From positions 1-64,000 of the forward strand of contig JAGXHG010000005.1 in NCBI GenBank assembly GCA_024636345.1: DNA of 64,000 nucleotides, written 5' to 3'. Below, piece after piece: positions 14,286-48,323 of this stretch (the stretch's first letter is position 1; every line of letters starts with the position of its first letter). The DNA comes from Desulfobulbaceae bacterium. Its GTDB lineage: Bacteria; Desulfobacterota; Desulfobulbia; Desulfobulbales; Desulfocapsaceae. Below the pieces are notes generated by a model. That model saw only the letters and a list, made by a program, of their open reading frames with translations. It searched no databases and was not told the DNA's origin. The position numbers and the translations under genes are program-made.

Positions 14286-14350
14286 AACGGCATAAGGGGG
14301 GCTGTAACGAAATGGTTAGAAATGTAATGGTTATTCGTAACGGCCCCTAA
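14286..14350 (+). repeat. Mini-ORF hairpin repeat, copy A
   Basis: It begins AACGGCATAAGG, ends AACGGCCCCTAA and shares a long central match with copies at 19229-19292 and 48261-48323. It contains a G-rich Shine-Dalgarno-like stretch, an ATG at 14312 and a 12-codon frame ending in Asn-Gly-Pro-stop at 14350. The two ends are partly self-complementary. This copy lies in the gap between mnmE and jag, antisense to both. Confidence 0.8.
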
Positions 14351-14374
14351 ATCGAGGTTTGGAAAAAGTTTATT

Positions 14375-15301
14375 TTATTCCTGCTCACCATTGTCGGTTG
14401 TGGGTTTATTACCTTTTCCCCTTCTGCCTCGAGATTGAGGGCGTTTTCTGCTATTGCCGCCGCTCCTGGGCTTGCCTGGCTTATAAATAAGGATTTTTTT
14501 AAACAGACCGTCACCCACGCTGCGGCTGCGGATTTCTTTGTCATCCTGCAATGCCATATGGACAACACGTCTTTCAGAGGGGTTTAATGAGGGGATAACC
14601 TGGGTCTTACCATCTTCCTTAACCAGTACAGCAAGTGCCAGGGCCTGATCCTGTAATTCGTCTTGTCTTTTCTCCCTGAAGTCACCTACGTCAATAGAGA
14701 TCCGTACCCGTTCGGAAACCTTTCTGGCGATGATCTTGCGGAGTAGATATTGTAGACTGTCCAGAGTCTTTCCTTCCTGTCCGGTAAGATCTTCTTCAAA
14801 GTCGCCGCTCACGTGGCATCTTACGGAACTTCCTTGTGCCTCAACTTCTATTTTGGAAGGAAGACCCATTAGCTGAAGCAATTGGGTGAGCTCCTGCTGC
14901 ACGCAATCGAGACTTTCCTGGCTGAGTGGCTCTTCTGAGCTTGCAGGGACAGCAAGATCATCCTCGTCGTCATCACCGGTGGGTGCCTCACTCCGAATGG
15001 CTTCTGGCGGGGGGGTGGTCTCTGGTGGAACGGGAGTCTTGGCAGCAGCAGGTTCCTGTTGAACAGGTAAGGGTTGTTCGATTACCGGGGGCGTTTTAAC
15101 TTTACTTTTCGTGGCAACAACAGCCTCTTTGAGACTGGCTCTGATATGGGCCTTCTTGCGGATAAAACCAAAGATACCAGTTGAGCCAGTCTCTATCACC
15201 TCTATATCCAGGTTTTCCTGGGGCGTTTGAAAGGCGTCACAAGCCTGCTTGATCACATCTGATACTGTTTTTCCTGTAAAATCTTTTTTTTCTAAAGCCA
15301 T
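14375..15301 (-). CDS. jag: RNA-binding protein Jag/KhpB
   Basis: A 308-residue protein of the SpoIIIJ-associated family. The N-terminal Jag_N domain (about 1-55) has ETGSTGIFGFIRKKA. An acidic Pro/Glu-rich linker (about 70-140) follows, then a KH-like domain (residues 150-215, with GQEGKTLDSLQYLL) and an R3H domain (SERRVVHMALQDD). The tail is a basic Gly/Arg-rich stretch. It binds RNA and is implicated in cell-wall and membrane-protein biogenesis. It lies between yidC and mnmE in the usual order. The long acidic linker and Arg-rich tail extend the protein beyond the usual 200-260 residues. Confidence 0.92.
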   Translation of the reverse strand: MALEKKDFTGKTVSDVIKQACDAFQTPQENLDIEVIETGSTGIFGFIRKKAHIRASLKEAVVATKSKVKTPPVIEQPLPVQQEPAAAKTPVPPETTPPPEAIRSEAPTGDDDEDDLAVPASSEEPLSQESLDCVQQELTQLLQLMGLPSKIEVEAQGSSVRCHVSGDFEEDLTGQEGKTLDSLQYLLRKIIARKVSERVRISIDVGDFREKRQDELQDQALALAVLVKEDGKTQVIPSLNPSERRVVHMALQDDKEIRSRSVGDGLFKKILIYKPGKPRSGGNSRKRPQSRGRRGKGNKPTTDNGEQE

Positions 15302-15405
15302 GGATTATCCTTCAATGGTCACTTATCATCTAAAATTCGTGTTGCCCTGTGCGCAAGGAGAAAGTGGAAAGGCACAATGCAAAGGGAATACACAGAAGAG
15401 AACAA

Positions 15406-46257: not shown

Positions 46258-47525
46258 TGTAATAGGTGCACTCTTACTTCAGAATTTTTTTCCAGCCCCT
46301 GTGAACTTTCATCGATGAAAAAATAGCCATGAGCTCTGGACAGGGTTGAGATGGCGCCTGACTTGCCCAAGACCGGTTGGGCCATCAGGACGCCGTTTTC
46401 CTCGTGCAGACGGACGCGAACCAGGTCAAGGCGACCGGGAGCGGAGTTGATATTTCTTTCGAGTACGGCTTTGATGGTTAATTGCGGAAGTTTCTTGTCT
46501 TTTTTATGGCCGGACAAGAGATCTATTGCCGGCTCGACAAAAATCTCGAAACAGACCATGGCTGAAACAGGATGCCCCGGCAGACCAAAAAGAGGAGTAT
46601 CGTTGTGAAGACCTATAATGATCGGTTTGCCTGGTTTCAAGGTGACACCATGGACAAGAATTCCAGGGTTGCCGAGCCGTTCAATGATTTTTTCACCAAG
46701 ATCACGCATCCCTACAGAGCTGCCTCCTGAAAAGAGGACAATATCGTTGTCCTCGATCGCCTTGAGCATTGTCGGAAAAAAATCCTCTTCCCGGTCCGAG
46801 ACGATGCCGTAATCGATCACCTTGGCGCCCGCCCGTCTGGCAAGGCCTGTCAATGTGATATTGTTGATGTCACGGATTTTACCGGCAGGGGGATTTTCGG
46901 ACCAGTGGACAATTTCATCACCTGTGGAAAGTATGCCTACTTTCACCTGCCTGTAAACCTCAATCTCACCGATGCCGAGACCGGCAAGAAGGCCGAGATC
47001 CTGGGGCCGTATCCGATGACCGGCGGCAAGGGCGACACTTCCTTTGCTGATATCCTCACCCTTGTTAATCAGATTTGTGCCGGCGCCAACACTTTTAACC
47101 AGCTCGATCATCTTGTCGTCAACCGGGATGGTATGCTCCCGCATGACCACGGCATCACTGCCGGACGGTAAGAGGCCGCCGGTGGATATGCGGAAACAGT
47201 GGCCCTGCTCTACCTTTCCCAGCGGATTCTCGCCCATAAGCACTTCGCCGCTCAACTGAAGATAGCATGGCATGGACTGGCTGGCACCATAGGTGTCTGC
47301 CGCTTTTACTGCAAATCCGTCCATGGTAGACCGGGCATGGGCTGGAAGATCTTCCGGGGAAAAAATATCTTTGGCCGTTATACGATCAAGGGCTTCATCC
47401 AGGAAAATACGTTCAGACGGCCTCTGGATGTTTTGCAGTTTGCCAGTGAGAAGAGAAAGAGCCTCATGCACCGGGGTCAAACGCTGCCTTCCCAGCATAT
47501 CTTTTGTTTTATCAAGTGCTGACAT
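46254..47525 (-). CDS. MoeA-family molybdopterin molybdenumtransferase (second copy)
   Basis: A 423-residue MoeA paralogue with STMDGFAVKAADT, RISTGGLLPSGSDAVVMREHT, ILSTGDEIVHW, VLFSGGSSVGMRDLG and FGLPGHPVSAMVCFEIF. It is paired with the MoeA-PBP fusion downstream and overlaps the unknown gene upstream by 14 bases. Organisms that use both metals often carry separate MoeA paralogues for molybdate and tungstate. Clustering with AOR and near tup genes suggests a tungsten role here, which is inference. Confidence 0.9.
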   Translation of the reverse strand: MSALDKTKDMLGRQRLTPVHEALSLLTGKLQNIQRPSERIFLDEALDRITAKDIFSPEDLPAHARSTMDGFAVKAADTYGASQSMPCYLQLSGEVLMGENPLGKVEQGHCFRISTGGLLPSGSDAVVMREHTIPVDDKMIELVKSVGAGTNLINKGEDISKGSVALAAGHRIRPQDLGLLAGLGIGEIEVYRQVKVGILSTGDEIVHWSENPPAGKIRDINNITLTGLARRAGAKVIDYGIVSDREEDFFPTMLKAIEDNDIVLFSGGSSVGMRDLGEKIIERLGNPGILVHGVTLKPGKPIIIGLHNDTPLFGLPGHPVSAMVCFEIFVEPAIDLLSGHKKDKKLPQLTIKAVLERNINSAPGRLDLVRVRLHEENGVLMAQPVLGKSGAISTLSRAHGYFFIDESSQGLEKNSEVRVHLLQ

Positions 47526-48129
47526 TATCTTCTTGAATCCTCATAAAAACGGTTTTCGATGTAAGAAGAAGACTTCCCAAGTCATCGAGGCTTATGGGTT
47601 TACCATCATAACGCAGGGACAAGAGATGAGAAAACAGGTTTCGGCGATAGTTAATGAATTTTAAAACGCTCTCATTTCTCATTAAACAGCCGTTATGAAG
47701 AATAGTTTCACCTTTTTCGGTGGCAATGATATTGAATAATTTCAGCCTGATTATAATTTTTTCGGTGCTCGGCAACCTGTCTGCTAAAGAATCGGAGGTT
47801 GAGGTCCTTAAGGCTGCATGGAAGCTGTTTTTTCGAAAAATTGCCCCGGCAAGTCCAGGCATAACGGCAGAAATAGCGAGCACGGGAGATGGGCCGGTAA
47901 TTATTGTTTCAAGATCATCAACAGGCAGGCCGTTCAGGAAAATCGTTTCTATGCGTTCACGTATATATTGCATAGTAAAACCAGGCAAGGAAGCAAGAAG
48001 CTCGCCAACAGTGGTTGGAGCGTTTCTTGCCTCTAAAATACCGGTCTGCAAAAGGGTGGTATATTTTTTGGTAGTGTCAGCCGGGATAAGGAACTCAAGG
48101 CGGGGAATATGAGGAGATCTGTTAATCAT
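47512..48129 (-). CDS. Hypothetical protein in the AOR-cofactor operon
   Basis: A 205-residue soluble protein of no recognised family, starting MINRSPHIPRLEFLIPADTT. A conserved-looking segment is LPGFTMQYIRERIETIFLNGLPVDD, followed by AISAVMPGLAGAIFRKNS. It lies between the AOR gene and moeA, and overlaps moeA by 14 bases. Tight coupling suggests a role in AOR maturation or cofactor handling, which is inferred from context only. Confidence 0.7.
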   Translation of the reverse strand: MINRSPHIPRLEFLIPADTTKKYTTLLQTGILEARNAPTTVGELLASLPGFTMQYIRERIETIFLNGLPVDDLETIITGPSPVLAISAVMPGLAGAIFRKNSFHAALRTSTSDSLADRLPSTEKIIIRLKLFNIIATEKGETILHNGCLMRNESVLKFINYRRNLFSHLLSLRYDGKPISLDDLGSLLLTSKTVFMRIQEDNVST

Positions 48130-48260
48130 AATGAGAGTATTGCACAGATTGTGAAACTGTACAGCTTGAAAAAGTGCACGCTTGCTCTCTGCCCATTTTT
48201 TTAAGGATTTGAGGAGAGAATAAAAATAGGCAGAGAGGGCGTACAGCTATGAAAATCTGT

Positions 48261-48323
48261 TTAGGGGCCGTTAAGAAATAACTTGGACTTTTTATCCATT
48301 TCTTTACGGCCCCTTATGCCGTT
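48261..48323 (-). repeat. Mini-ORF hairpin repeat, copy C
   Basis: This is the inverse orientation of the copies at 14286 and 19229. On the minus strand it has AACGGCATAAGGGGCCG, an ATG at 48299 and a 12-codon frame ending Asn-Gly-Pro-stop at 48261, exactly like copy A. It lies in the 234-base gap between the AOR gene and the unknown gene 47512-48129. Confidence 0.8.

Follow-up and report, generated by a model that had tools for sequence, protein, structure and literature searches.

A double-hairpin repeat of about 105 bp, likely mobilized in trans, probably supplies both the ribosome-binding site and the start codon of four unrelated genes (mnmG, queE, gspK, and rnhB) within one genus of bacteria. 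It came to attention in a stretch of 64,000 nucleotides (nt) of contig JAGXHG010000005.1 from a Desulfobulbaceae bacterium (GenBank assembly GCA_024636345.1), referred to here as the window, in which it forms the beginning of mnmG. Comparison among genomes directly displays the dispersal of the repeat, sites at which relatives lack it, junctions with a strand-specific TAA, the same orientation and frame at all four genes, native frames that end inside the element (at every filled mnmG locus and some others), and an mnmG frame that was kept after the palindrome had decayed. From this pattern we infer that translation from the native start terminates, the hairpin opens, and translation restarts at the ATG of the element.

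The element at the start of mnmG

The copy at mnmG (copy B) runs from TAA to TAA at positions 19189 to 19292 on the forward strand (E = 5.9e-19) and sits in the ancestral gene at a TAA five codons from the start, with an empty site at L069/G011. The gene as it now stands (19253 to 21178, forward strand; Pfam GIDA, 4.4e-165) takes its start and first 13 codons from the element, and these residues replace the roughly five native codons left upstream. The native start overlaps the stop of the preceding gene, which has a methyltransferase domain (18286 to 19173, forward strand; PF13649, 5.7e-11), as TAATG. The frame that it opens (19173 to 19238, forward strand) has 21 codons and stops inside ATAAGGAG at a TAA (19236 to 19238) overlapping the Shine-Dalgarno-like AAGGAG of the element (19237 to 19242, forward strand), which belongs to the 5' arm of the right hairpin. 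Read from the element's ATG at 19253, the frame begins MEKDTTAISQRLLN and continues NYDVVVIGAGHAG, for a predicted MnmG N terminus of MEKDTTAISQRLL. In this frame no other start codon occurs before a GTG in the FAD-binding strand, and the element's ATG is, as far as the letters can tell, the only credible start left to mnmG. The earlier note on this stretch had placed the start of MnmG in the AAGGAG and ATG of the repeat, as we find. It had also explained the open frame by an extra base that removes a stop codon; copy B does have one more base than the other two copies in the window, but measured against the family consensus it is a change from TAA to CAA that opens the frame.

The right arm reads ATAAGGAGCCGTAACGAAATG (A-TAA-GGAGCCG-TAA-CGAA-ATG), with stops in two of the three frames flanking the Shine-Dalgarno-like letters and an ATG following, all within about 20 nt. 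When the RNA is folded in isolation, AGGAG is predicted to be paired within a 9-bp stem (z = −3.86 for the 181-nt leader). An insertion would sever the gene from its native start; ribosomes setting out from that start would finish at the stops in the arm, and on terminating they would melt the hairpin, exposing AGGAG, and resume translation at the element's ATG. Where the TAA of the arm is CAA, the new frame would cross the arm, encoding ..SQRLL, and continue into the gene. A restart of this kind would let these insertions persist, whereas other insertions into gene starts are lost. More tentatively, and with appreciable doubt, the element may amount to a built-in translational bypass: landing in the first codons would restart the gene, even a conserved tRNA modification gene, the element could later be lost cleanly, and gene starts would be interchangeable modules in the genus.

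The mnmG locus exists in several states among close relatives. The gene was found in 15 of the 17 genomes of the genus, of which six are filled (G000, G005, G016, G007, G015, and G012), five are empty (G011, G003, G008, G001, and G014), and four carry remnants (G002, G004, G009, and G013); orthologs without the element thus exist, in keeping with the earlier note's view of the segment as an addition. The empty site of G011 reads GGAAATAAACAAC (ATGTCACACCAGGAAATAAACAACTATGATG). The sequence is almost identical in G000 and G005 except that the element separates GGAAATAA from TAAACAAC; in G016 it separates GGAAATAA from TGAATAAC. At all six filled loci, 14 or 4 nt lie between the end of the native frame and the new ATG downstream. 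The palindrome has been lost in G002, G004, and G009, and ATG..LLN(T/S)YD has been kept in frame; a deletion in G013 placed the native ATG in frame too. Outside the genus, inspection by eye of 15 of 20 mnmG loci found no trace of the element at the start.

The earliest branches of the mnmG gene tree are G002, G004, and G009, and the filled genes, the empty genes, and G013 alternate above them. Because the flanks are clade specific (the left flank of filled G007 recurs in empty G003 and G008, and that of G000 in empty G011), transfer between clades appears unlikely, so that the element was either lost precisely or inserted more than once at the same base. Whether the extension is under purifying selection was considered and set aside; the minimum changes by codon position (9, 9, and 13) are too weak to use.

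Recurrence of the layout at queE, gspK, and rnhB

In the family consensus, a frame that begins at the ATG of the arm meets TAA after 27 nt. Exact arms with TAA occur at 274 places in 16 of the 17 genus genomes, and exact arms with CAA occur at 38 places in 14 of them (none in the reversed control). Thirty of the 38 CAA arms were inspected, and 16 open into a gene: queE in seven cases, mnmG in four, gspK in three, and rnhB in two. At all four genes the layout is an ATG, 27 nt, CAA, and the residues SQRLL, in one orientation and one frame, and because queE, gspK, and rnhB share it with mnmG, the element's start at genes is recurrent. Only queE of G016 departs from the spacing among the 16, its ATG lying 12 nt upstream of CAA. 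Thirteen of the other 14 CAA arms stop within 55 codons, and the last (L296) opens a 313-codon frame from TTG codons and was not counted. AAGGAG is intact in 15 of the 19 start loci examined. Pfam supports the identities of the genes (GidA, T2SSK, radical SAM, and RNase HII); the radical SAM gene we take to be queE from its motifs.

Filled and empty states occur beyond mnmG as well. The queE gene was found in 23 of 27 genomes; 6 of the 16 loci inspected are filled, 2 retain the right part only, and 8 have no readable element. For gspK (16 of 27 genomes), inspection of 16 loci gave 3 filled, a likely remnant in G013, and unclear cases in G002 and G009. For rnhB (23 of 27 genomes), 13 of 14 loci could be anchored, with 2 filled and a possible remnant in G014; the native junction there is not clear. 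The queE site is empty in G001 (GTCCTTAACATC) and filled in other genus members, and the gspK site is empty in G016 (CCCTTAAAAAACAAC) and filled in G000 (TTTAAGCC..CTCCTAAAGAAC). The earlier note had suspected a mobile or dispersed repeat; the empty sites, which show insertion, and the layout at three further genes support that view.

In the genome to which the window belongs, 3 of 68 examined copies clearly supply a gene start (81 rows, less 11 rows on the opposite strand, the duplicate locus L284, and the weak distinct copy L281:3343-3495). Frames opening from L241, L244, and L231 (antisense) and from L049, L054, L237, and L291 (sense) were left uncounted, having a start with its own context close downstream or being doubtful. 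Two loci, L043 (G000:C14:140840-140964) and L406 (G005:C29), present a gene for an ABC-type ATPase (identified by eye) with its ATG 6 nt past the final TAA of the element, at which a short element frame ends; this may be a second restart layout, one without in-frame fusion. At L301 (queE of G016), near a one-base change of loop length, a TAATG closes the first frame, and the gene frame is open from its ATG.

Architecture, dispersal, and probable mobilization of the element

The earlier note had located three copies correctly, but each proved to be the right-hand part of a longer element whose first hairpin lies 5' of the stretch first recognized. Besides copy B these are copy A (14244 to 14350, forward strand; E = 1.9e-20), which lies between jag and mnmE and opposite to both, and copy C (48261 to 48366, reverse strand; E = 3.0e-21), whose left TAA (48366 to 48364) doubles as the stop codon of the aldehyde ferredoxin oxidoreductase gene upstream. 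A degraded, weak fourth copy lies at 18030 to 18148 on the reverse strand (E = 2.8e-4). Copy A lies 13 nt before the called mnmE start, in antisense, so that the genes for both partners, MnmE and MnmG, have a copy at the 5' end; in the interval 14230 to 14350 of the window, no ribosome-site-like sequence is left directly before the called mnmE ATG.

The whole element is palindromic and consists of two abutting hairpins, the second resembling the first inverted, with TAA at either end. Its consensus is TAA-GCCGTTGT..AAATAAC..(variable)..AACGGC-A-TAA-GG(A/G)GCCGTAACGAAAT..(variable)..ATTTCGTAACGGC(T/C)CC-TAA. In 72 aligned copies, 94.0% of the cells in 17 named hairpin pairs are paired, a figure biased upward in that the alignment was fitted to the hairpin structure; partners slid out of register pair in only 28 to 49% of cells. 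Covariation supports the hairpins, with 64 double-change cells in the 17 pairs against 23.4 in shuffles. The outer arms, or terminal inverted repeats, are complementary and nonidentical, and their variable inner hexamer is paired in 297 of 432 cells against 207 ± 12.6 in shuffles, an excess inflated by the kinship of related subfamilies. Across subfamilies these inner parts are complementary (ATGGCC/GGCCAT, TTGGAC/GTCCAA, and CGTTAC/GTAACG; for example, L064:1501-1624 and L035:1501-1624), which looks as though one arm had been copied from the other. A search of Rfam with the window gave no match above the gathering score, and a known structured RNA was rejected.

What the family conserves is the hairpin arms and not a coding sequence. 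The earlier note had described a repeat carrying its own start codon and 12-codon open reading frame. Such frames are present in copy A (14312 to 14350, forward strand) and copy C (48261 to 48299, reverse strand); neither looks used, because copy A opposes both neighboring genes and about 130 nt separate the end of the frame in copy C from the next called start, and both were judged incidental. In the family at large the claim fails: the arm ATG is present in 27 of the 72 copies and absent from L064, L246, and L391, which are near-identical and probably young, and the small frames, shifted by loop length, vary in length and frame with no conservation at the codon level. A conserved mini-frame as the function of the repeat is thereby ruled out. 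The position that opens the gene frame is TAA in 58 of the 72 copies and CAA in 6. Base pairing accounts for the letters of the arm, and the start codon looks like an accident at the level of a subfamily, retained where a gene had come to depend on it.

The exact sequence AACGGCATAAGG occurs 8 times in the 2.96 Mb of the window's own genome against an arithmetical expectation of about 0.35, so the three copies in the window are not a product of chance. A covariance model built from 16 copies found 62 matches in that genome at E ≤ 1e-6, far more than the three first noticed, and 114 at E ≤ 0.1, some of which are the opposite strand of the same copy. The element is present in 17 of 17 genus genomes and in 6 of 21 genomes outside the genus. 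Matches per genus genome range from 6 to at least 93, the high counts being lower bounds since at most 93 candidates per genome were scored. The L246 copy, from a genome of another family of the order (G036), is almost letter identical to the G014 copy L064 and close to the G013 copy L391, which suggests recent movement, though a contaminated draft assembly may also explain it. To look for carriage on plasmids or phages, one 105-bp copy from G014 was used, and it had no match. The nearest named records with a similar mnmG are metagenome-assembled genomes, a Lac Pavin deltaproteobacterium at 90% identity and Desulfobulbaceae bacterium UBA2276 at 88%, and by these similarities the host is a relative of the Desulfobulbaceae/Desulfocapsaceae.

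Apart from a TAA on each side, the 16 seed copies have no flanking sequence in common. Empty sites in relatives, including one at window position 15329 where G016 has a copy and G000 reads TCATCTAAAATTC, place the insertion at TAA. The junctions have TAA-type letters on both sides and the empty site a single set, as expected from a target-site duplication or from insertion 3' of TAA without duplication. Since both ends are almost always TAA (54 of 72 copies on the left and 57 of 72 on the right, with TTA once at each), the target is evidently read on one strand. Three head-to-tail tandem loci share a single TAA. Strand-specific TAA, tandems with a shared TAA, and apparently precise losses are more compatible with IS200/IS605-like single-strand movement than with symmetric DDE cut-and-paste. 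The element is short and free of genes, is dispersed in many copies, and has terminal inverted repeats and a target-site duplication with an empty site; it thus resembles a miniature inverted-repeat transposable element (MITE) or a repetitive extragenic palindromic (REP) sequence and is likely mobilized in trans.

Alternative explanations and other repeats

Several observations count against an element that supplies gene starts and is moved in trans. The CAA search finds only arms with an open frame, so that 16 of 30 is a count and no test of enrichment. Further in-frame ATGs lie upstream of the ATG at −27 in gspK of G000 (−63) and G005 (−126) and in queE of G000 (−39), and the exact start at these genes is therefore not forced by the sequence. 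A native frame ending near the new ATG was seen at 4 of 8 queE loci (14, 4, or 3 nt), at 1 of 3 gspK loci, and at neither rnhB locus, and neither G007 nor G008 has AAGGAG at queE, while the motif is altered in queE of G000 and gspK of G011. Presence at mnmG must have changed at least four times within the genus on the gene tree, several supports of which are moderate, and precise loss, repeated insertion, and recombination do not appear separable with certainty at this locus. Differences among filled species in the mnmG extension are mostly nonsynonymous, indicating weak amino acid constraint. The genomes compared are draft assemblies. Finally, no element match was found at the 30 of 75 Y1 transposase loci examined.

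That last result bears on the possibility that the repeat is a REP/REPIN family mobilized by a REP-associated tyrosine transposase (RAYT, of the Y1 type), which is compatible with an element that supplies gene starts and which we consider doubtful, though it has some chance of being correct. REP/REPIN and IS200/IS605-type elements show hairpin pairs, polarity, site-specific junctions, and clean excision, and a REPIN is defined by a GTAG/GTGG-type tetranucleotide at the hairpin foot. The element shares the two abutting, inverted hairpins, the polarity, the site-specific junctions, and tandem copies, and Y1 domains (PF01797; 75 matches) occur in 17 of 17 genus genomes. It differs in that no Y1 gene adjoins it and no RAYT gene is flanked by it at the loci examined, the number of elements is by eye unrelated to a strong Y1 match, and the alignment as read has no GTAG/GTGG-type tetranucleotide at the hairpin feet, which are TAA. 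No autonomous insertion sequence with the element's ends was seen among the loci examined, and no transposase was recognized by eye among the open reading frames listed between the inverted copies at L405 and L418.

It is unlikely that the element is a domesticated 5' leader, its hairpin kept for translational regulation with a hidden ribosome site opened by a leader frame. AGGAG does lie within the 9-bp stem of the predicted fold, and the native frame reaches or enters that stem at all six filled mnmG loci; however, G002, G004, and G009 kept the start though the hairpin decayed, and five genus members do without the element at mnmG. A one-off accident, with an ordinary intergenic palindrome coinciding with the mnmG start, would agree with the position of most copies away from gene starts and with the poorly conserved ATG, but it is very unlikely given that four unrelated genes share the frame and the ATG-27 nt-CAA layout and that most of their loci have AAGGAG. 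Selection on the mobile element for a stop-Shine-Dalgarno-stop-start cassette that lessens harm on landing is highly improbable: a stop and Shine-Dalgarno-like letters are found in the conserved arms (AAGGAG in 30 and AAGGGG in 20 of 72 copies), but base pairing explains these letters, and the ATG and open frame are not conserved and are absent from the probably young copies.

Repeats of comparable form are known from other bacteria. MITEAba12 of Acinetobacter, 113 bp long, is like our element nonautonomous, multicopy, and able to form the 5' end of a gene, and in three reported cases could add MQQS to a neighboring gene; in the parts of the report available, its start codons lie near the ends, and there is no mention of ribosomes, of a stop-Shine-Dalgarno-start arrangement, or of a filled and empty species series (PMC6382973). 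Rickettsia palindromic elements (about 150 bp) are likewise palindromic and in frame in unrelated genes, but as described in the sections available they add a peptide through an open frame, whereas here the native frame is stopped, a new start would be used, and coding begins inside the element with no internal insertion (PMC10969869). Enterobacterial ERIC/RU repeats (about 103 to 168 bp) are of similar size, mobile, and present in coding regions, some at N termini (RU-2 in Yersinia pestis loci); the main text as available has no occurrence of start codon, Shine-Dalgarno, initiation, or ribosome (PMC2759123). Pneumococcal RUP (about 107 bp) and BOX elements offer hairpins, terminal inverted repeats, target-site duplications, nested insertions, and, in boxC, a possible start codon, but the available text describes BOX reading frames as lacking a good candidate Shine-Dalgarno sequence and as matching hypothetical coding sequences only (PMC3049150). 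Our literature search, for which subscription papers were mostly out of reach, found no description of a repeat from this host group or of a stop-Shine-Dalgarno-start element. These descriptions, as far as they were available, contain no repeat that would stop the old frame and restart the gene, repeatedly and with empty sites in sister species.

Small palindromic repeats are usually seen as intergenic clutter or gene breakers, whereas here a family seems repeatedly to provide conserved genes with their 5' end. With filled, empty, and decayed states present among close species, the origin of new translation starts is directly testable, and so is translation-coupled restart as the survival route of an insertion. 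Annotated starts of mnmG, queE, gspK, and rnhB in this group should not simply be transferred from relatives.

Two further repeats were encountered. One of about 57 bp, GTCGCTCTTCATCCATCCCTGGAGCGAGCGACACTGG..CATCCCTGGTCTGCG, sits at various points inside copies of the element in the window's own genome (L228 to L236), forming composites of about 177 bp (for example, G000:C8:151396-151574), and it also occurs in four leaders, those of queE in G000, G005, and G014 and that of gspK in G005. At window position 34679, G016 and G011 carry about 145 bp that are missing in G000 and that hold a different palindromic repeat, GATGGCGTCGCAAAAAGTC.., possibly a third family; a similar piece is inserted in loci of G007.

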